Source: Sediminispirochaeta bajacaliforniensis DSM 16054 (GTDB lineage Bacteria; Spirochaetota; Spirochaetia; DSM-16054; Sediminispirochaetaceae). Taken from it: a DNA stretch of 64,000 nucleotides. The DNA is taken from NCBI RefSeq assembly GCF_000378205.1, contig NZ_KB899411.1, positions 1-64,000 of the forward strand, written 5' to 3'. Under the pieces are notes generated by a model. That model searched no databases and was not told the DNA's origin. It saw only the letters and a program-made list of their open reading frames with translations. Position 1 is the stretch's first letter, and every line of letters begins with the position of its first letter. Positions 54,021 through 64,000 of the stretch are shown piece by piece. Position numbers and translations under genes: made by a program.

Positions 54021-55280
54021 ATGGCTGAAGTAAGTCTTGGATTTAAGCCGATGGAGGCATTCGACGTCAAAGGCAAACGGGTACTTTTACGCGTAGATAT
54101 CAACAGCCCCATCGATCCGAAAACAAAGAAAATCGTAAACGAAAACCGCATACAGAAAAGTCTGCCGACCATTTCCTGGCTCCTTGATCATGGGGCAAAA
54201 CTCGCAATGATCGCGCACCAGGGTGATACCCTCGATTATCAAAACCTGATCCCGTTGGAAGAACATGCTCAAAAACTGAGTGCCGGTCTCGGACGACCAG
54301 TCGATTATATCGATGATGTTTGCGGTCCGGCGGCCCAGCAGAAGGTGAAGGAACTTGCCGAAAGCCAGGCCATCCTTCTTGGTAACCTGCGCTACCTCTG
54401 CGAAGAGATATCGACTTTTGAGAATGCGGTAAAACTGAAGGCTGAAGAGATGCTGGATACCTATTTGGTTCGCTCTCTTGCCCCCTTATTCGACCTCTAT
54501 ATCAACGACGCCTTTGCTGCAGCACACAGAAACGCTCCAAGCATGGTGGCCTTTCAGGAGCTTCTTCCTTCTGCCGCAGGACCGCTTTTCTTTAAAGAGG
54601 TCTCCGCGCTGACGAAGGTAATGAAAAGTCCCGAGCATCCTTCGGTCTTCGTTCTCGGCGGAGCAAAGATATCAGACGCCTTCGGGATGATGGAACAGGT
54701 TCTTTCATCGGGCACAGCCGATAAAATTCTGGCCTGCGGCGTCACCGGTGAGGTGATGCTCATCGCTTCCGGCAGGAGGCTTGGAACAGCCACGGATAAA
54801 TTCCTTGCAGACAAGGGACTGGATGTTTTTATCGAGCCCGCGGCCAAATATTTGAAAGAGTATCCGGGAAGAATCATTGCTCCCGACGACCTGGCCTACG
54901 AAGAAAACGGAAAAAGACAGGAGTTAAACATCGAAGCGCTGCCGAAGGAAGCACTGTTCCTCGACATCGGAACAAAAACGATAGAACGCTTTGAAGCGGA
55001 AATCAAAGCGGCAGGCACTGTCTTCGTCAACGGTCCTGCCGGGGTATTCGAAGATGAGAAATTTGCAAAAGGGACCAAAAGGGTTTGGCAGGCAATAGCA
55101 TCGGCCCCCGGCTACACGGTAGTGGGGGGTGGCGACAGCGTAAGCGCTGCGGCCCGCTTTACCAATATGAGTGATTATAGCTATGTCTGCACCGCCGGCG
55201 GAGCAATGGTTCGCTTCCTTTCAGGCAAGAAGTTGCCGCTCATTGCCGCCATGGAAAAGGCCGGGAAGAAATGGAAGTAG
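54021..55280 (+). CDS. pgk: Archaeal-type phosphoglycerate kinase
   Basis: A 419-residue PGK whose sequence is closer to archaeal forms: LLRVDINSPIDP near residue 22, NRIQKSLPTI, MIAHQGD, LLGNLRYLCEE, YINDAFAAAHR, VFVLGGAKISDAF, VFVNGPAGVFED and VVGGGDSVSAA. It makes ATP from 1,3-bisphosphoglycerate, or the reverse in gluconeogenesis. Its partner reaction is encoded 78 bp upstream by the class II GAPDH. The 3' end overlaps the LarA-like gene by 10 bp. Confidence 0.92.
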   Translation: MAEVSLGFKPMEAFDVKGKRVLLRVDINSPIDPKTKKIVNENRIQKSLPTISWLLDHGAKLAMIAHQGDTLDYQNLIPLEEHAQKLSAGLGRPVDYIDDVCGPAAQQKVKELAESQAILLGNLRYLCEEISTFENAVKLKAEEMLDTYLVRSLAPLFDLYINDAFAAAHRNAPSMVAFQELLPSAAGPLFFKEVSALTKVMKSPEHPSVFVLGGAKISDAFGMMEQVLSSGTADKILACGVTGEVMLIASGRRLGTATDKFLADKGLDVFIEPAAKYLKEYPGRIIAPDDLAYEENGKRQELNIEALPKEALFLDIGTKTIERFEAEIKAAGTVFVNGPAGVFEDEKFAKGTKRVWQAIASAPGYTVVGGGDSVSAAARFTNMSDYSYVCTAGGAMVRFLSGKKLPLIAAMEKAGKKWK

Positions 55281-56518
55281 CACTTCCCTATTTGAAGAAT
55301 ACCATTTCCGTCACGGTTCCGGACAAAAACGTCCTTGCAGTAGTCGAACCAAATGACCTTCGGGCCAAGGGTGATACTGCAAGCATCGTGAATGCAGCCA
55401 TTGCCTCCCCTGTTGAGAGCAAGCCATTCGAAGCCTTTATAGCCGGAGCAAAGAACTTACTGGTCATTGTCAACGACCAGACTCGGCCGACCCCCACACG
55501 TGCGGTGCTCTCCGCCATTGCTCCGGCCCTGGCGAAGGTTGATCCTTCCTTCATCATTGCAACGGGAGTCCATAGAGGCCCCACGGAAGAAGAGTATCGG
55601 CAGATATTCGGAGATGAACTGTTCGAACGCTACCGGAACAAAATTCATGCCCATGATGCAAGAAAAGATGAGATGGTCTACCTCGGGACCAGCCGGGCCG
55701 GCACCGAAATGTACGTAAACAAGATGGGTGTCGATGCCGACAGAATTATCGTTATAGGATCGGTGGAACCCCACTACTTCGCAGGCTACACTGGAGGACG
55801 AAAAGGGTTTCTCCCCGGAATAGCCAGTTACCACACCATCGAACAGAACCATCGTCATGCCTTGCACCCCGGAGCAAAGGCGCTCAATCTCGAGGGAAAC
55901 CCGGTACACGAGGACATGATCGATGCACTCTCCGTGGTAAAAAAAGAGATCTTTGCGATCATGACGGTTCTGGACAAAAGCCACAACATCTACGCGGTAA
56001 CCGCCGGAGATATTAATGCATCCTTTTATCAGGCCATCGACAAGGCCGATGAAATTTTTGTGGCGGATATCCCCAGTCGGGCGGATATCGTGGTAAGCGT
56101 CGCCAAATACCCAATGGATATAGACCTCTATCAGGCGCAGAAGGCAATCGACAACGGTAAACTGGCTATGAAGGACGGAGGGATGATGATCCTCGTTGCA
56201 AGCTGCCGTGACGGAATCGGAGAGGAGGCCTTTGCACGCCTCCTCTCTTCCTCGGATACGCCCGAAGGGGTACTCAAGACAATTCAAAAAGAGTACAAAC
56301 TTGGGTATCACAAAGCGGGAAAGATGGCGGAGGTGTTTCTTCGGGGAGAGGTCCATGCCTATACCCAGCTCCCGGATGAACTGTTAAGCTCTTTTTTCAT
56401 CATCCCGGAGCATGATCTGCAAGCTGCCATTGACGAGGCCCTTAAAACAAAAGGCAGGGATGCCACAATTCTCTTTCTGCTTGACGGTAGCGTCACGGTC
56501 CCGAGAGCAGTAAGATAG
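55271..56518 (+). CDS. LarA-family nickel-pincer racemase/epimerase
   Basis: A 415-residue LarA superfamily (DUF2088) protein. Residues equivalent to those binding the nickel-pincer nucleotide are kept: H101, H168 (EPHYFAGYTGG), K178 (GGRKGFLPG, the covalent lysine) and H194, together with D69 and R72 (NDQTRPTP). Such enzymes racemise or epimerise 2-hydroxyacids. No larB, larC or larE cofactor genes are adjacent and must lie elsewhere. Lactate is the prototype substrate, but the malic enzyme 36 bp downstream makes malate a good candidate. Confidence 0.88.
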   Translation: MEVALPYLKNTISVTVPDKNVLAVVEPNDLRAKGDTASIVNAAIASPVESKPFEAFIAGAKNLLVIVNDQTRPTPTRAVLSAIAPALAKVDPSFIIATGVHRGPTEEEYRQIFGDELFERYRNKIHAHDARKDEMVYLGTSRAGTEMYVNKMGVDADRIIVIGSVEPHYFAGYTGGRKGFLPGIASYHTIEQNHRHALHPGAKALNLEGNPVHEDMIDALSVVKKEIFAIMTVLDKSHNIYAVTAGDINASFYQAIDKADEIFVADIPSRADIVVSVAKYPMDIDLYQAQKAIDNGKLAMKDGGMMILVASCRDGIGEEAFARLLSSSDTPEGVLKTIQKEYKLGYHKAGKMAEVFLRGEVHAYTQLPDELLSSFFIIPEHDLQAAIDEALKTKGRDATILFLLDGSVTVPRAVR

Positions 56519-56554
56519 CAAGAAGCGAACGAACAACGATAGGAGATTAATGAG

Positions 56555-57841
56555 ATGGATGAATTAAAAGAGAAGGCCCTGGCCTACCACAAACTTGACG
56601 GAAAACCGGGGAAACTCGAGGTGGTCCCGACAAAGCCGTGTCAGACCGCAGAGGATCTCTCCCTTGCCTATACGCCTGGGGTTGCCAAGCCGGTTCTGGA
56701 AATCGAAAAGGACACTGAGACTGCGTACGAATATACCAATAGGGGTAACCTTGTGGCAGTCATCAGTAACGGTACTGCTATTCTCGGTCTGGGGGATCGA
56801 GGCGCCCTTGCAAGCAAGCCGGTTATGGAGGGAAAAGGTGTCCTTTTTAAAAGGTTTGCCGACGTCGATGTTTTCGATATCGAAGTGGATACTCATGATC
56901 CGGAAAAGCTTATCGAGGTTGTTAAGATGCTGGAGCCTACCTTCGGCGGGGTGAACCTCGAAGATATCAAGGCGCCGGAATGCTTCGAGATCGAAAATCG
57001 TTTGAAAGCCGAAACCAATATTCCCATCTTCCACGACGACCAGCACGGTACGGCTATCATAGCCACCGCAGGTCTGATCAATGCGGCGGAAATTACGGGG
57101 AAAAAGCTTTCGGAGATGAAAATCGTCTATAACGGAGCAGGGGCCGCAGGAATCAGCTGCGCACGCATGTTCGTCGCCGCAGGGGGCAAAAAAGAGAACA
57201 TCATTATGTGCGATTCCAAGGGGGTTATCTTCAAGGGACGAACAGAGAGGATGACACCTCAAAAAGAAGAGTTTGCCTCCTCGACCTCGGCACGAACCCT
57301 TGCCGAAGCCATGAAGGGCGCCGATGTTTTTATGGGGCTCTCTGTTGCCGACTGTGTATCACCGGAGATGCTCGCAAGTATGGCATCTCAACCGGTGGTC
57401 TTTGCTATGAGCAATCCGAATCCCGAAATCGATTATCCCACCGCCGTGTCCGTGCGAAAAGATCTCATCATGGCCACCGGTCGAAGCGATTATCCCAACC
57501 AGATAAACAACGTCCTCGGTTTTCCCTTTATCTTTCGGGGAGCACTTGATGTCCGCGCGACCGGTATAACAGAAGGCATGAAAATGGCGGCCAGCAAGGC
57601 CCTCGCAGAACTTGCAAAGCAGCCCGTACCCGAGATTGTAAAGCGGGCATACGGTGGCAAGGAGTTTTCCTTTGGCCAGAACTATATCGTTCCCAAGCCC
57701 TTCGATCCCCGGGTCATCGAGTACGAAGCCGTCGCCGTTGCAAAGGCAGCATGTGAAGAGAAAGTCGCACGTAAGCCCATAACTGATTGGGATGCATACC
57801 GAAAAGAACTTGTCAAGCGCATGGAAAAGTACTGGAAATAG
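56555..57841 (+). CDS. NAD(P)-dependent malic enzyme
   Basis: A 428-residue short bacterial malic enzyme that oxidatively decarboxylates L-malate to pyruvate. [40 protein letters not shown], the metal/catalytic DIEVD and [10 protein letters not shown], and cofactor site [15 protein letters not shown] are present; no phosphotransacetylase-like C-terminal domain is fused. AGGAGA precedes ATG 56555. Last gene of the operon, ending at the 57859-57895 terminator. It would link malate from the LarA-like enzyme to pyruvate and reducing power. Confidence 0.93.
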
Positions 57842-57858: not shown

Positions 57859-57895
57859 AGGCATGGCCGCCGAAAGGTGATCATGCCTTTTTTTT
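57859..57895 (+). terminator. Rho-independent terminator of the malic enzyme operon
   Basis: AGGCATG (57859-57865) pairs with CATGCCT (57882-57888), with an inner CC-GAAA-GG tetraloop, followed by a T8 run. It overlaps the last codons of the convergent chemoreceptor gene. Confidence 0.85.
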
Positions 57896-60169
57896 GTTGC
57901 TCTCCTCAAGTTCAAAGGCGCAGACCAATTCTTTTTCGGAATTTGCAAGAGTCGATAGCTCTTCCGCACGCCGTGCCACCGCAACAATCTGTTTGTTCAG
58001 TTTATCGCTTGAGAGACGTACCCGATCGAATTGGCCGCTGTTTCGGTGATGAATTTCCATTACCGATAGAACGGTGGTCGCAACGCTCTGTGCCGAGGTC
58101 TCCATTTCGGAAAGAGCATTCAAGACTTCTTCCATCTTTGTGCGGTTGACAGAGGCCGCTTCATTTATCTCGGAAAGATGATTCTCCGCCGCCGATACCT
58201 GTTCATTGCTGGAACGGACAACATCGACAACCTCATCAGCATGTTTTTCGGCACTTTCCACCGAATTCAAAACCTCTTCCAACAAAGCGGTGATCTTTTC
58301 CGTAGCACTACTTGCACCCTCCGACAGGGTACGAATCTCATGCGCCACAACGGAAAACCCGGCACCGGCTTCTCCTGCTCGTGCAGCTTCAATCGAAGCG
58401 TTCATTGCAAGTAAATGAGTTTGGGCCGCAATATCCTCTATGGCGCCGATGATCGTCCGTATCTCACGTGAACGTTTTGCAAGCTCATTGATAAGCTCTT
58501 GCGTCGCTCTTGTCGAAGAGGTCAAGCGATCGCCGGCCTTCTTGGTCGCCATAATGGCCGCTCGTCCCCCGACGGCGGCGGCGGCAACCTGTTCGGCACG
58601 ACTTCCTGCCGAGTGTGTTTCTCTGGCAGCTATACCGACAAGTGAGGAAAGAGTATCCATTGCAAGCCGTGCTTCTTCCACCTCTTGTTGCTGAGAATCC
58701 AAAACATTCCGTACTGAAGAAAGCGCATCCTGAATATCGACAGTTGCCGATTCCGAATCACTTGCCCCACGTCTCAACTTCTCTCCTATCTTTGCCACGC
58801 GGTCGGCCTTCTCTTCTACTTCAACAATCATTCCTCGAAGGCTGAAAGGTTCCTGATTATAGGTGACGACCAGAAGCCCCTTGTCTACAGCCTTGTTTAT
58901 GACAGGGATCAAACGATCGCTGAAAAGAGGAATGGCAAAGCCATCGTACGTATCGGTAATAAGTCTTTCGATCATGTCTCTCCAGGCATCGACATCATAG
59001 TGATCTTTCCCCTTTGGAGGCAGTATGATGTCGACTGCACAATTTTTGGCCGCCAGAATCCGCCGTGCATCCTTGGCCCCTTTATAGACGGGAGGCCAAA
59101 AATCCTCATTCTTCGGTATAAGAAAGGCCAGTTTCAGCCCCCTGGAGGGACTCTCTTCCGAAAGCACGGCAAGCCCTTCACTTTCTGTGCTGTGGCCCAG
59201 ATGTTCGCGAAAGTTGTCTTTGGTAATGACCTTCGGCGTGATAAGCATTTTGGGATGCTCAGGTCTCCAAGAAGAAACCATCGAATTGAAAAGATAGACA
59301 AGAGGATTATACCCCTGCAGATAAGGACTCTGCGTAATAGTCGTGGTTAGGTACCCCGAATGGAAAAAATTGGAAAAACCCTCTCGTTTTCCGTGTCCGA
59401 AAAATGATATCGCTCCCGGAGATTTCAGTCGACGAAGTTCATCAAGGCTGTCCAGGGTAGTGGCTTCCTCAAGCTGGTAAACAGCCGCAAGATGCGGAAA
59501 ATCCTGCAACAGATTTCTTATCCCCTCTCTCGCACGCCTTGGATCCCTGCTTGTGTAGACAGTCCGAACAACATTTATCTTCGAAAAATCATTGTGAAGT
59601 GCATTTACAAAACCACGTTCCCGGAGGACCGAATAGTTTGTTTCTTCATTGACAGCAATAATCGCTATCTCGCCTTCCCCTCCAAGACGAGCCCCCACGA
59701 TCTGTCCCATCAGTTGGCCGTGTAGATAGTCGTCGATACCGGTGAAACAAATTCGCCGCACAGGCTCGGCAGTTAGTGAAGCGATACCGAGCATTGCCCG
59801 GTCAATTGCATCAGAAGATGCCGAAAATGCCGAATATAGTGATCGGTAGAGGGCACCATAAGGAGGGGTCACATCAATAGCAGAAAGATCGACATGGGCA
59901 CAAAGATTTCCTCTGGCGATTTCCCAAACGGCTCTTTCAAAAGGAGCAATTCCTTGATTACGAATAGCACGGGCGGCTTGCACGCCATATCGTACAAGCC
60001 GTCTGTTGGCAATAAAAGAGGTTCCCCAGCCATAGAGAACGACCACAAAAAGTAAAACCGTCAGGATAAATAAAACCGGATCCGCTATACCGGCGTGAAG
60101 TAAACGCACAACAACTATAGCCAATAGCGTAGAGCCGGAAAGAATACAAGCTATCGTGTTTTTTCCCAA
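57881..60169 (-). CDS. Chemoreceptor with permuted sugar-binding-type sensor and no membrane segment before the signalling domain
   Basis: A 762-residue protein, TTG start 60169 behind GAGGT. Two adjacent N-terminal helices (about 4-26 and 31-50) are the only membrane segments, then a HAMP-like region (75-125). Residues 138-320 match the C-terminal lobe of RbsB/LacI-type binding domains ([42 protein letters not shown]). Residues 345-440 match the N-terminal lobe ([41 protein letters not shown]). The lobe order is therefore inverted. A full MCP signalling domain follows (hairpin [20 protein letters not shown] near 580-599). With no helix between sensor and signalling parts, both should be cytoplasmic. 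Confidence 0.85.
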
Positions 60170-60357: not shown

Positions 60358-61239
60358 CTAAGCAAGCCTCGAAAGATGTTCGTTCAATACGGTTATGCCG
60401 GTAAGGGGCTTATCAGCAAGCGGATTCTGCGAAATAGTTACGTCGGGAAACGCTTCAGCGACACGCTCTGTCCATTCACCCATCCCAGTATATTTATTGA
60501 CGATGATTCGGCCGATTTCCATTCCGAACCCCGCCAATTGGCGTTTGATCAGAAGACTTTCCGAAAAGCTCAACTCGTCTTCATTAAGTATAAGTACGAT
60601 TTCGGTTTGCGTTCGATCACAGAGCAACGACAAAAGCGTATCGTAACGCTTTTGCATACGCACCAGGCGAGAAAAGATCGGATCATGGTCTCGGTCGATG
60701 GAAGACTCGCTATGTATTTCGGCTACACGATTTTTCTTTAGAAGTATCTCTTCCCTCATCGCTTTTAAATGGCGAATCCAGTGAAGATTTACCCCCGGCA
60801 AAGCCAGCATCTTCATGGTGAGCGCCGTTGGGGGAGTATCGATAACAAGCTCATCGTAGCGACGCTCATCATAACATCGTTGAAGAATCAAAAGTGCGGC
60901 GTATTCTTCCATACCAGGAGCAAATTTCAACAAGTTAAAATACTTATCGATGTTCAAGGCTTGCTGATAGTGGTAGAGATTCTTCAACTCTCCACGAATT
61001 TCCGCCATATACTCACGCCCCTTCTGGCTCGTATCTGATTCTCGAACGGTAAGAGTCGGCAGAATTTTCTTTCCCTTTGCCCCCAGTTCTGTCCGAAAAA
61101 TATCATGGAGATTATGAGCAGGGTCCATGGAGTCAAGCAGCGTTTTACGCTGCGAAGAAGCCAATCTCAGAGCCTCCAGGCAAGAGCAGGTTGACTTCCC
61201 GACACCGCCCTTTCCCACGAAAATATGATATCGCGGCAT
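60358..61239 (-). CDS. ArsA/Get3-family ATPase
   Basis: A 293-residue P-loop ATPase with the deviant Walker A GKGGVGKST (9-17, intradimer Lys10), switch I DPAHNLHD (39-46) and the Walker B/switch II stretch VIDTPPTALTMKML (132-145), all diagnostic of the ArsA/Get3 group. The arsenite-binding cysteines of ArsA and the CxxC zinc motif of eukaryotic Get3 are absent, and no arsenic genes are nearby. A single domain suggests a homodimer. ATG 61239 overlaps the upstream stop (TGATG), in an operon with a small protein and a four-helix membrane protein. Its role could be membrane-protein targeting rather than arsenic export. Confidence 0.85.
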   Translation of the reverse strand: MPRYHIFVGKGGVGKSTCSCLEALRLASSQRKTLLDSMDPAHNLHDIFRTELGAKGKKILPTLTVRESDTSQKGREYMAEIRGELKNLYHYQQALNIDKYFNLLKFAPGMEEYAALLILQRCYDERRYDELVIDTPPTALTMKMLALPGVNLHWIRHLKAMREEILLKKNRVAEIHSESSIDRDHDPIFSRLVRMQKRYDTLLSLLCDRTQTEIVLILNEDELSFSESLLIKRQLAGFGMEIGRIIVNKYTGMGEWTERVAEAFPDVTISQNPLADKPLTGITVLNEHLSRLA

Positions 61240-61523
61240 CACGGTTCCCCCATGATACTTGCAAGCTCACTCAAACCGTTTCCGGTTTGACTCGCCCTAA
61301 GGAGCATATGTTCCAACTCCTCCGCCATATCCGGCAGCAGCTCTAAGGTTAAGGGCATTGAAGGCCCAGGCAAGCCGATAAAATTTCCAAAAAGCATGAG
61401 AGTAAAGGAATTTTCCATCTCGGAAATTTCATACTCAATTTGGGCCGTTGCTTTGTAAAGCATGGCCTGTTGAAATCCCCGAAAAAAAGCACGAATAGAT
61501 AGCCACAAACGATTATGTTTCAT
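61239..61523 (-). CDS. Small protein of the ArsA/Get3-like operon, unknown
   Basis: A 94-residue protein; ATG 61523 lies inside the end of the upstream gene (11-bp overlap), with GTG 61526 as the alternative. It has a basic N-terminus (MKHNRLWLSIRAFFRGFQQ), an acidic middle, a short hydrophobic stretch (SFTLMLFGNFIGLPGPSMPL) and an amphipathic C-terminal helix (LPDMAEELEHMLL). No known family. Overlaps on both sides mean its translation is coupled to both partners, so a small adaptor of the ATPase is a fair guess. Confidence 0.6.
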   Translation of the reverse strand: MKHNRLWLSIRAFFRGFQQAMLYKATAQIEYEISEMENSFTLMLFGNFIGLPGPSMPLTLELLPDMAEELEHMLLRASQTGNGLSELASIMGEP

Positions 61524-61962
61524 CACTTTTTACCCTAAAAGCAGCAATATCCTTTTTATATGTTTTATTGGCGGGAAAAACCGAATAGATCCCGTATATC
61601 GTAACCAGGACCGAAAGGTAAAGATGATATCGATACACAGGAACAAGATAGGCAAAGAGAGTGAAAAGTGCCCCAAACAAAACGCACAGAACGAGGCACC
61701 TCTCCATACGAAAAAATTCAGACAGGCTAAGCCCATCCTGATGTGCACTTTTCCGATAAAAGGCCATCCTAACAAGAATGGGAAGAGCAACAGCGCCTGT
61801 CGTGCTCCCCAACAGACCAACCATCGATAAAACACGGGTCGGTTCGGCGGGAAAAGCCCACCCCAGATAACGCATAAACCAAATCGCCACTAAACCAAGG
61901 GAAAACAGAACCATCATCAGGTACGCCTGAAGGCGGATTCTATGAAGTAATGTTTCAAGCAT
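61513..61962 (-). CDS. Four-helix membrane protein of the ArsA/Get3-like operon
   Basis: A 149-residue integral membrane protein with about four helices (MMVLFSLGLVAIWFM, LSMVGLLGSTTGAVALPILV, CLVLCVLFGALFTLFAYLV, YLSVLVTIYGIYSVF) and a charged cytoplasmic tail (NKTYKKDIAAFRVKSDET). No recognised family. First gene of the operon, overlapping the small-protein gene. By position it could be the membrane receptor or client channel for the ATPase; that is inference only. Confidence 0.65.
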   Translation of the reverse strand: MLETLLHRIRLQAYLMMVLFSLGLVAIWFMRYLGWAFPAEPTRVLSMVGLLGSTTGAVALPILVRMAFYRKSAHQDGLSLSEFFRMERCLVLCVLFGALFTLFAYLVPVYRYHLYLSVLVTIYGIYSVFPANKTYKKDIAAFRVKSDET

Positions 61963-61980
61963 TCAGTATCATCCTTCAAG

Positions 61981-62016
61981 AAAAAAGCCGGGCGATGAAA
62001 ACTCACATCGCCCGGC
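61981..62016 (-). terminator. Rho-independent terminator after cstA
   Basis: On the minus strand GCCGGGCGATG pairs with CATCGCCCGGC (11 bp, 8-nt loop, 61987-62016), followed by T6 read from 61986-61981. Confidence 0.95.
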
Positions 62017-62024
62017 AAGGTTCA

Positions 62025-63764
62025 CTATGCCTGAGCAGCCTGCATATCTTCTTTACTGAAGAGCTTCTTTAGGCTTTCGAAAGCTACAAAAATCACGATG
62101 AGAATAATGGCCAGATTGATAATCCCCAAGAGCACCTTTGTACCGGCAATATAACTCATCTCGTTCTCAATCAAAGCCCAGAAGGTCAGAACGAGCATGA
62201 AAATGCCGGGAAGCAGGGTAACCAAATACTTTTGCCCGCCCCGTTGCTTGAGATAGACCGAAGCGGTAAAAAGGGCCAGAGCGGCAAGGGTCTGGTTGTT
62301 GGCGCCGAAAAGAGGCCAAAGAGCCATGGCTCCCTTTCCATTGGCTCCGGTCGAGAAGGCCAAAATTCCTGCGGTAAGCAACGCGAGAATAGTTGCACCG
62401 TATTTGTTGGTGAAAAAGCTTTTTTTCTCGGCGGCACCTACACGATTGGCCCCCAATAATTCCTGAATAACATAACGCTGGAGTCGTGTTGTGGTATCCA
62501 TTGACGTTCCGGCAAAGGAAGCAACAAATACCCCCATGATGATCAGGCCGAGGTATTTGGGAATGCCCAAGTAGCTTATCATGTTGGCGGATCCTTCGAC
62601 GAAGGCTCCGACCTTGGCGCCCAAACCTGCAGCAGCGCTCCAGGATGCATAATGCTGGGTCCACTTTGCAAGACCGGTAACCGCCCCGGTCTCTCCACGT
62701 GCAGCAAGGCCGATACCGGCGGCAGTCGCAATAATGACAATGACAGCCAGGGCCCCTTCCATCAGCATAGAGCCGTATCCGATAAACTGTGCATCTTCCT
62801 CTTTTGCAACCTGTTTCGCCGTCGTCCCCGAGGCAACCACCGAGTGGAAGCCGGAGATAGCGCCGCAGGCTATGGTAATAAAGAGAAAGGGCCAGAGAGA
62901 CGGAGCTCCCTCAGGAGCCGCCTGTACCGCAGGCGCAACAATCTTCAGTCCGTTAAAGGACGCTGCAATAACAGCGATAACAACCAAGCCCATTGCAATA
63001 AAAAGTTCCCAGGCATTAATATAGTCCCGAGGTTGAAGCAATGTGGTAACCGGCAAAGTAGAAGCGATGAAGCAGTATACAAAGAGAATGAGGGTCCACA
63101 CGCCCGTTGCCGGCATTCCGCCGATGGTAGGCATGTCGAGGGGAATGACATGGCCTAAAACAACGGTAATATACATAGCGACAACAGCTAAAACGGTTGC
63201 TCGGTTGACATGTGCATTGCGCTTGTAAATTGCCCACCCCAGGATTATAGCAATGGGTATCTCCATCCATACCGGGAAAACCGCCTCAGGGTACATATGA
63301 AAGATGACGGCGATGATCATGCCCAATATAGCCAGAAATAACCACAGCTCGATAAAGACAATCAGGAAAAAGGCTACACGAATTCTTTTACTGATATATC
63401 CCGCTGCGACTTCGGATATAGACTTTCCCTGGTTCCTGAGCGACATAACCAGAACACTGAAGTCCTGTACCGCTCCCATAACAATAGAACCCACGAGTAC
63501 CCAAATGAGTGCCGGTAGCCATCCCCATATGACACCGATGGCAGGTCCTACAATCGGTCCGGTTCCGGCAATGGAAGTAAAGTGGTGGCCAAATATAATT
63601 CCTCGTTTTGTCGGAACATAATCGACACCATCCGTGAACTCTACCGCCGGTGTTTTGTTCTGATTCGTCAGTTGGAAGATCTTTTTTCCGACAAACTCAC
63701 CATACAACCGGTAGGCTATGATATAGCCGGCAAAAGCTACTATCATAATTAAAACAGCATCCAT
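62025..63764 (-). CDS. cstA: CstA-family peptide/pyruvate transporter
   Basis: A 579-residue integral membrane protein with about 15-16 hydrophobic segments. Family motifs are YGEFVGKKIF, TKRGIIFGHHFTSIAGTGPIVGPAIG, MGAVQDFSVLVMSLRNQGKS, FHSVVASGTTAKQV and FVASFAGTSMDTTTRLQRYV. CstA proteins take up peptides or pyruvate, often under carbon limitation. AGGAGG lies 7 nt upstream of ATG 63764. Monocistronic, with its own promoter and terminator. Confidence 0.95.
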   Translation of the reverse strand: MDAVLIMIVAFAGYIIAYRLYGEFVGKKIFQLTNQNKTPAVEFTDGVDYVPTKRGIIFGHHFTSIAGTGPIVGPAIGVIWGWLPALIWVLVGSIVMGAVQDFSVLVMSLRNQGKSISEVAAGYISKRIRVAFFLIVFIELWLFLAILGMIIAVIFHMYPEAVFPVWMEIPIAIILGWAIYKRNAHVNRATVLAVVAMYITVVLGHVIPLDMPTIGGMPATGVWTLILFVYCFIASTLPVTTLLQPRDYINAWELFIAMGLVVIAVIAASFNGLKIVAPAVQAAPEGAPSLWPFLFITIACGAISGFHSVVASGTTAKQVAKEEDAQFIGYGSMLMEGALAVIVIIATAAGIGLAARGETGAVTGLAKWTQHYASWSAAAGLGAKVGAFVEGSANMISYLGIPKYLGLIIMGVFVASFAGTSMDTTTRLQRYVIQELLGANRVGAAEKKSFFTNKYGATILALLTAGILAFSTGANGKGAMALWPLFGANNQTLAALALFTASVYLKQRGGQKYLVTLLPGIFMLVLTFWALIENEMSYIAGTKVLLGIINLAIILIVIFVAFESLKKLFSKEDMQAAQA

Positions 63765-63798
63765 GGAAACCTCCTGAAATGAGATTGTTGTATACTAT

Positions 63799-63827
63799 AT
63801 TAAACACCCATTCGAGATATTTGTCAA
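63799..63827 (-). promoter_or_regulatory. Promoter of cstA
   Basis: On the minus strand a perfect TTGACA (63827-63822), 17 nt, TTTAAT (63804-63799); a TATACA lies a few bases further down. Confidence 0.65.
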
Positions 63828-63884
63828 AAAAAGTGCCATATAGAAACACAATTCTCATTATCAGAGGTGGGCTAAAAAAGAAGT

Positions 63885-63919
63885 CAAAAAAAACCGTCTC
63901 TCCACAAGGAAGAGACGGT
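63885..63919 (-). terminator. Rho-independent terminator of the gene at the right edge
   Basis: On the minus strand ACCGTCTCT pairs with AGAGACGGT (63893-63901 with 63911-63919, 9-nt loop), followed by a T7 run. Confidence 0.9.
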
Positions 63920-63951
63920 CGTCTAAGGCCTTACAAACACGATAGAAAAAC

Positions 63952-64000
63952 CTATTCAGCGGCAGGTGCGGCCTCTTTTTTCTCCTCTTCAGCAGGAACA
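63952..64000 (-). CDS. 3' end of a gene with an Ala/Glu/Lys-rich C-terminus
   Basis: The last 15 codons are readable: VPAEEEKKEAAPAAE then TAG at 63954-63952, followed by a strong terminator. Such alanine/glutamate tails end several ribosomal and secretion proteins, but nothing more can be said from this fragment. Confidence 0.6.
   Translation of the reverse strand, partial: VPAEEEKKEAAPAAE

Follow-up and report, generated by a model that had tools for sequence, protein, structure and literature searches.

A CstA transporter operon with a Get3/ArsA-fold ATPase and a four-helix membrane protein in Sediminispirochaeta bajacaliforniensis

Introduction

Operons that join a gene for a CstA-family transporter to genes for a small protein, CstX, and an ArsA homologue were described in 2010 by Castillo & Saier (PMC2963123). 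According to the accessible parts of that paper, CstX never stands in an operon without cstA, a further protein, CstY, is found in five archaea, and the ATPase is proposed, from the operons and from matching trees, to energize CstA. Word searches of the same text returned no spirochaete and no four-helix partner protein, and no further paper on CstA with CstX, ArsA/Get3 or cory-CC-star was found in the open-access literature. Excerpts of other papers report that E. coli CstA works by pyruvate/H+ symport, powered by the proton gradient (PMC7730263), that uptake requires the small CstA partner YbdD (PMC5847655), and that cstA of Desulfovibrio has a pyruvate-specific phenotype (PMC10102598). Why a Get3/ArsA-fold ATPase travels with a transporter family of this proton-gradient type is a question standing since 2010.

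Here we analyse a stretch of 64,000 nucleotides (the window) from S. bajacaliforniensis DSM 16054 (contig NZ_KB899411.1, positions 1 to 64,000). From the sequence alone, an original prediction had proposed that it encodes a module of ATPase, adaptor and membrane receptor for the insertion or assembly of membrane proteins, possibly undescribed in spirochaetes.

Results

The original prediction placed an operon of three serially overlapping genes at 60358-61962, and all three open reading frames were found there on the minus strand. TM4, a name coined in this analysis for a 149-aa four-helix membrane protein, occupies 61513-61962 (ATG 61962, stop 61513); CstX, which owes its name to Castillo & Saier, is a small protein of 94 aa at 61239-61523 (ATG 61523, stop 61239), predicted to be a helical hairpin; and 60358-61239 (ATG 61239, stop 60358) encodes a 293-aa ATPase, a single ArsA/Get3-fold domain of the CstA-linked type. 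The TM4 and CstX frames overlap by 11 bp and the CstX and ATPase frames by 1 bp (TGATG), with alternative GTG starts upstream at 61526 and 61242. The predicted operon is conserved and overlapping, but it is one gene short: cstA (62025-63764), which belongs to the unit, starts off the operon 62 bp upstream of TM4 on this strand and encodes a 579-aa CstA-family transporter (PF02554) of the type with TM4. The 62-bp gap holds a hairpin resembling an intrinsic terminator (61987-62016, minus strand; 11-bp stem, 8-nt loop, TTTTTT), and no promoter-like site was found in it on the operon strand. The order in the window is cstA, TM4, CstX, ATPase, with CstY absent; cstA heads this four-gene operon, and the three overlapping genes make up its accessory half. 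That they belong to a CstA system is highly probable.

The genome contains exactly two full CstA genes, one per operon, and two strong ArsA/Get3 ATPases, both CstA-linked, the next match reaching 36.8 bits. In the second operon (L003), whose ATPase is 35% identical to that of the window, the order is cstA, CstX, ATPase and then a gene for a 212-aa CstY-like protein. As had been predicted, no ars gene was seen by eye among the open reading frames listed around the window ATPase, nor was any among those around the paralogous locus; YbdD was not found in the genome. Directly upstream of cstA (63764-64000; L034:3953-10488) lies what we take to be a ribosomal alpha operon, with ribosomal proteins and rpoA, and a further terminator-like hairpin (63892-63920) stands between the two. 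Near the operon, on the plus strand, are genes that we presume to be LarA-like and malic-enzyme-like (55271-57841) and that would fit lactate/pyruvate metabolism, while the next downstream gene on the operon strand (57881-60169) presumably encodes a methyl-accepting chemotaxis-like protein with a periplasmic-binding-like region.

Set beside the operons in the accessible parts of Castillo & Saier (PMC2963123), the locus has the same components, namely CstA, a CstX of ~90 aa and a single-domain ArsA homologue of ~300 aa, again with no ars genes, and the second copy in the genome likewise has a CstY-like gene of ~210 aa behind the ATPase; unlike them, the operon in the window includes TM4 and lacks CstY. 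The CstA-CstX-ArsA grouping was already published there, against the predicted possibility of an undescribed module.

The ATPase was searched for in 198 genomes of the class, of which 53 gave a match. CstX adjoins the ATPase in all of the 30 best-matching loci, CstA is present in 28 and TM4 in 16, so the gene arrangement is conserved and not due to chance. The two loci without CstA are one at a contig edge (L017) and one in the genome G030 (L010). Among 20 further loci with an ATPase match that were read, 16 have CstX and 15 have CstA; CstX is missing from two that a contig edge truncates (L130, L144) and from two that hold other ArsA types (L146, L147). In a set that partly overlaps with the others (e.g. 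L079/L160, L081/L133), 60 loci of named genomes were found by CstX alone; they belong to Spirochaetes, Thermococcus, Archaeoglobus and a small number of further bacteria. Fifty-eight of them have CstA, and both remaining loci begin where their contig begins; 59 have the ATPase and 6 have TM4. A CstX-profile search of the phylum listed 12/296 genomes, fewer than would be expected from the ATPase search; it seems to under-report, as it misses known CstX genomes, and was left unused for counts. Across bacteria and archaea, the conserved unit is cstA, CstX and the ATPase. The proposed module of ATPase, adaptor and membrane partner is thus conserved and is not an arsenic system, yet it is not free-standing, its core partner being CstA.

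The published statement that CstX never occurs without cstA holds in the window and has one exception elsewhere, in G030. No CstA was found in this genome (97% complete, 5% contaminated), where CstX and the ATPase (L035:2934-5853) lie 162 bp behind a gene of the NhaC-type Na+/H+ antiporter family (PF03553, 181 bits). The ATPase keeps both P-loop lysines and has DRFR where DPAH is expected, and a second ATPase copy (L127) is more degenerate and without CstX. This one genome represents either a transporter swap or a relic after the loss of CstA.

The window CstA belongs to its family by a score of 463 bits against PF02554 (cut-off 27), stays below the cut-off of 1188 for NF011590 with 276.7 bits, and is 31.8% identical to E. 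coli CstA; no PDB chain was found for it. What it transports is probably pyruvate or another small acid of this kind, with an ion gradient and not ATP as the driving force. A full CstA without a CstA-linked ATPase occurs in 28 of 72 genomes of the class, or in 27 without G062, where a contig edge cuts off the TM4-cstA stretch, and at all 20 of the unlinked CstA loci that were read, no CstX, TM4 or ATPase adjoins the gene. CstA therefore needs no such ATPase in general. YbdD was found in none of the 198 genomes of the class. A second CstA-like family, with shorter open frames (about 480-540 aa), is present in many spirochaetes; its best match extends only over positions 1 to ~147 of the Pfam model.

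TM4 was modelled by AF2 with a mean pLDDT of 86.5 and helices at residues 2-32, 42-75, 80-106 and 111-127. No Pfam family matched it, its predicted fold gave 0 matches in the PDB at E <= 0.001, and the best match of its profile to PDB sequences (E 0.49) is noise. A search of 394 genomes of the class gave matches in 28, of which 26 were strong; in 24 of these TM4 sits between cstA and CstX, and in the other two it is at a contig end beside cstA. The weak matches in G447 and G457 (E about 5e-4) were taken as spurious, as none of the other operon genes is present. We also considered, and rejected, the reading that TM4 has split off from CstA: relative to E. coli CstA, the window protein is missing no more than residues 1-31 and some short stretches, and neither E. 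coli CstA nor any of 16 further CstA proteins gave a convincing match to the TM4 profile.

A FastTree of CstA was built from 106 rows, 102 of them different, and long branches make its deep placements uncertain. All 19 TM4-linked CstA fall on one side of a branch with a support of 99 and all 20 accessory-free CstA on one side of another with a support of 97, with the remaining CstX-linked CstA between the two groups; one divergent locus of G193, read twice (L145/L171), stands apart from the main group, and L106 was relabelled by hand, its CstX having been found by tblastn and not by profile. TM4 is restricted to one CstA clade. CstY homologues accompany 63/67 CstX-linked CstA rows without TM4 and 0/19 with it; the four TM4-less rows that lack CstY are two cut by a contig edge (L091, L129) and the twice-read locus. 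TM4 and CstY are mutually exclusive, and the core of CstA, CstX and ATPase accordingly carries one of two alternative partners. The 212-aa protein matches the CstY of Castillo & Saier in size, place and archaeal occurrence, although its bacterial homologues are widespread here, against the five archaea in the accessible text (PMC2963123). A variant of the CstA-CstX-ArsA unit that is marked by the four-helix partner seems not to have been reported before, and within the open-access literature searched, the TM4 subtype, its exclusion of CstY and the hairpin pattern given below appear to be unreported.

CstX matches the NCBIfam model of cory-CC-star (NF041419) weakly, with 29.2 bits, far below the cut-off of 80, and ends in GEP, not CC; all 27 CstX relatives match the model at E <= 0.1, the best at 4.5e-8. 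Judged by these profile matches, CstX is related to cory-CC-star and not a member. The AF2 model (pLDDT 77.7) has a long helix and a second helix at moderate confidence, and CstX is predicted to be a helical hairpin rather than a tail-anchored client. Its profile found only noise among PDB sequences (best E 0.76). The E. coli system is alike in having a gene for a small partner directly behind that of its CstA-family transporter, according to excerpts of PMC5847655 and PMC7730263, and unlike in that no ATPase adjoins cstA and that YbdD (65 aa) bears no similarity to CstX. Homology of CstX to YbdD found no support, with an hhalign probability of 0.2% and no match to Pfam, the YbdD/YjiX family Sel_put (PF04328) included, in any of 27 CstX proteins. 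One divergent CstX (L145:4051-4341, in G193) ends in CC, as does E. coli YbdD; a C-terminal CC, which cory-CC-star has by name, is possibly a shared feature of CstA partner proteins.

Get3/TRC40 proteins bind tail-anchored clients as well as a membrane receptor, they have a zinc-binding CxxC at the dimer interface and a hydrophobic, Met-rich client-binding helix, and the intermonomer lysine of the P-loop has its role between the ATPase monomers. The window ATPase shares their fold family and nucleotide motifs: it scores 162.8 bits against TIGR00345 (GET3/ArsA/TRC40; cut-off 135), a model that takes in ArsA as well as Get3/TRC40, and 157 bits against Pfam ArsA_ATPase (cut-off 24.3), aligns over nearly its full length with the archaeal Get3 3ug6, and has the predicted switch motifs GKGGVGKST, DPAHN and DTPPT. 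Among 86 distinct CstX-linked ATPases, a count that left out L035 and L127 of G030 and the ArsA types without CstX, the P-loop and DPAHN are kept in all 86 and DTPPT in 81, which suggests that these ATPases are probably working enzymes. They differ from Get3 in being linked to a transporter and, at sequence level, in lacking the Met-rich helix and a conserved CxxC. Any CxxC is present in just 3/86, and a sequence-level comparison places a charged helix where the Met-rich one would be in 23/23, with a mean hydropathy of -0.21 to -1.51 vs -0.09 and +0.22 in two archaeal Get3 and 0-1 Met residues vs 4 and 2. Together with a CstX that is predicted to be no tail-anchored client, this speaks against the GET-like insertion module of the original prediction.

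Export of arsenite or another oxyanion, which the Pfam name ArsA and the description 'anion-transporting ATPase' would suggest, is highly improbable. The ATPase is a single domain of 293 aa, whereas the ArsA pump has two fused domains (~600 aa), and it reaches only 87 bits against arsen_driv_ArsA (cut-off 650); no Cys column is common to more than 5/23 relatives, which bears out the predicted lack of arsenite cysteines, and no ars gene was seen beside either operon. Other ArsA relatives of the class stand without CstX (L146, L147, L172, L173); judged by eye, L172 has a gas-vesicle-like context and L173 a neighbour that looks like Acr3.

The region around the hairpin after cstA (61975-62024) folds with -25.3 kcal/mol (z -6.5). 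Every gene end was put through one hairpin scan, with a score cut-off of 24 chosen after the first scan had been seen; two duplicate loci were dropped from the counts, and others may remain. A hairpin with a T-run follows cstA at 9/18 TM4-type, 30/48 other bacterial CstX-linked and 0/18 archaeal loci, and at 10/20 solo CstA loci. It follows TM4 at 0/16 loci and, at bacterial loci, CstX at 1/63 and the ATPase at 0/64. With 20 shuffles per locus, the observed score was reached once, in one locus. A hairpin placed after cstA and hardly ever after the accessory genes suggests that the accessory proteins may be made in smaller amounts than CstA. It may also simply be cstA's old terminator, because half of the accessory-free CstA genes have it too.

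Discussion

We consider it moderately probable that the accessory genes encode an ATP-switched complex that controls or matures the ion-driven CstA transporter. CstX would dock on the cytoplasmic face of CstA, and an ATPase dimer, with its conserved P-loop and intermonomer lysine, would bind CstX; ATP binding and hydrolysis would then switch CstA to an active or correctly assembled state, and the membrane partner of the CstA-CstX-ATPase complex would be TM4 in the one subtype and CstY in the second. An on/off or maturation switch is also, in our judgement, the likelier role of the ATPase than that of an energy source. We favour such a complex over an ATP motor because E. coli CstA is proton-driven and needs YbdD, and a full CstA also occurs without the ATPase. 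Against it, half of the TM4-type loci have no hairpin and the argument from the hairpin is indirect, and G030, in which no CstA was found, still has CstX and the ATPase.

The proposal of Castillo & Saier, by which the ATPase acts through CstX to power CstA directly and so turns a secondary carrier into an ATP-driven pump, draws on operons and matching trees (accessible parts of PMC2963123), and the intact P-loop and DPAHN of every CstX-linked ATPase agree with it. We think it unlikely, given the proton-driven E. coli transporter (excerpts of PMC7730263), the 27-28 genomes that do with a full CstA alone and a hairpin that suggests unequal protein amounts. Delivery or assembly of CstA, TM4 or CstX in the membrane by a Get3-like factor would fit the Get3/ArsA fold, the TIGR00345 score, the small cofactor and membrane partner encoded alongside, and a hairpin that would keep such a factor at small amounts; the charged helix, the near absence of CxxC and the solo CstA that manages without accessory genes make it rather unlikely, although an assembly role for CstA itself is possible.

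Returning to the ATP-switched complex, CstX and the Get3-fold ATPase could form a portable control module for secondary transporters, with TM4 or CstY as partner, that could be transferred from CstA to a carrier unrelated to it, as G030 might illustrate; we regard this extension as quite doubtful. If it is true, the regulation of ion-driven carriers would be a role new to the ArsA/Get3 fold. The window genome holds both the TM4 and the CstY subtype, so the core and its exchangeable part are separable by plain gene deletions, and pyruvate uptake offers a simple read-out for the function of the accessory genes. If the ATPase is a switch and not a motor, the ArsA/Get3 fold would gain a job beside arsenite export and the delivery of tail-anchored proteins.
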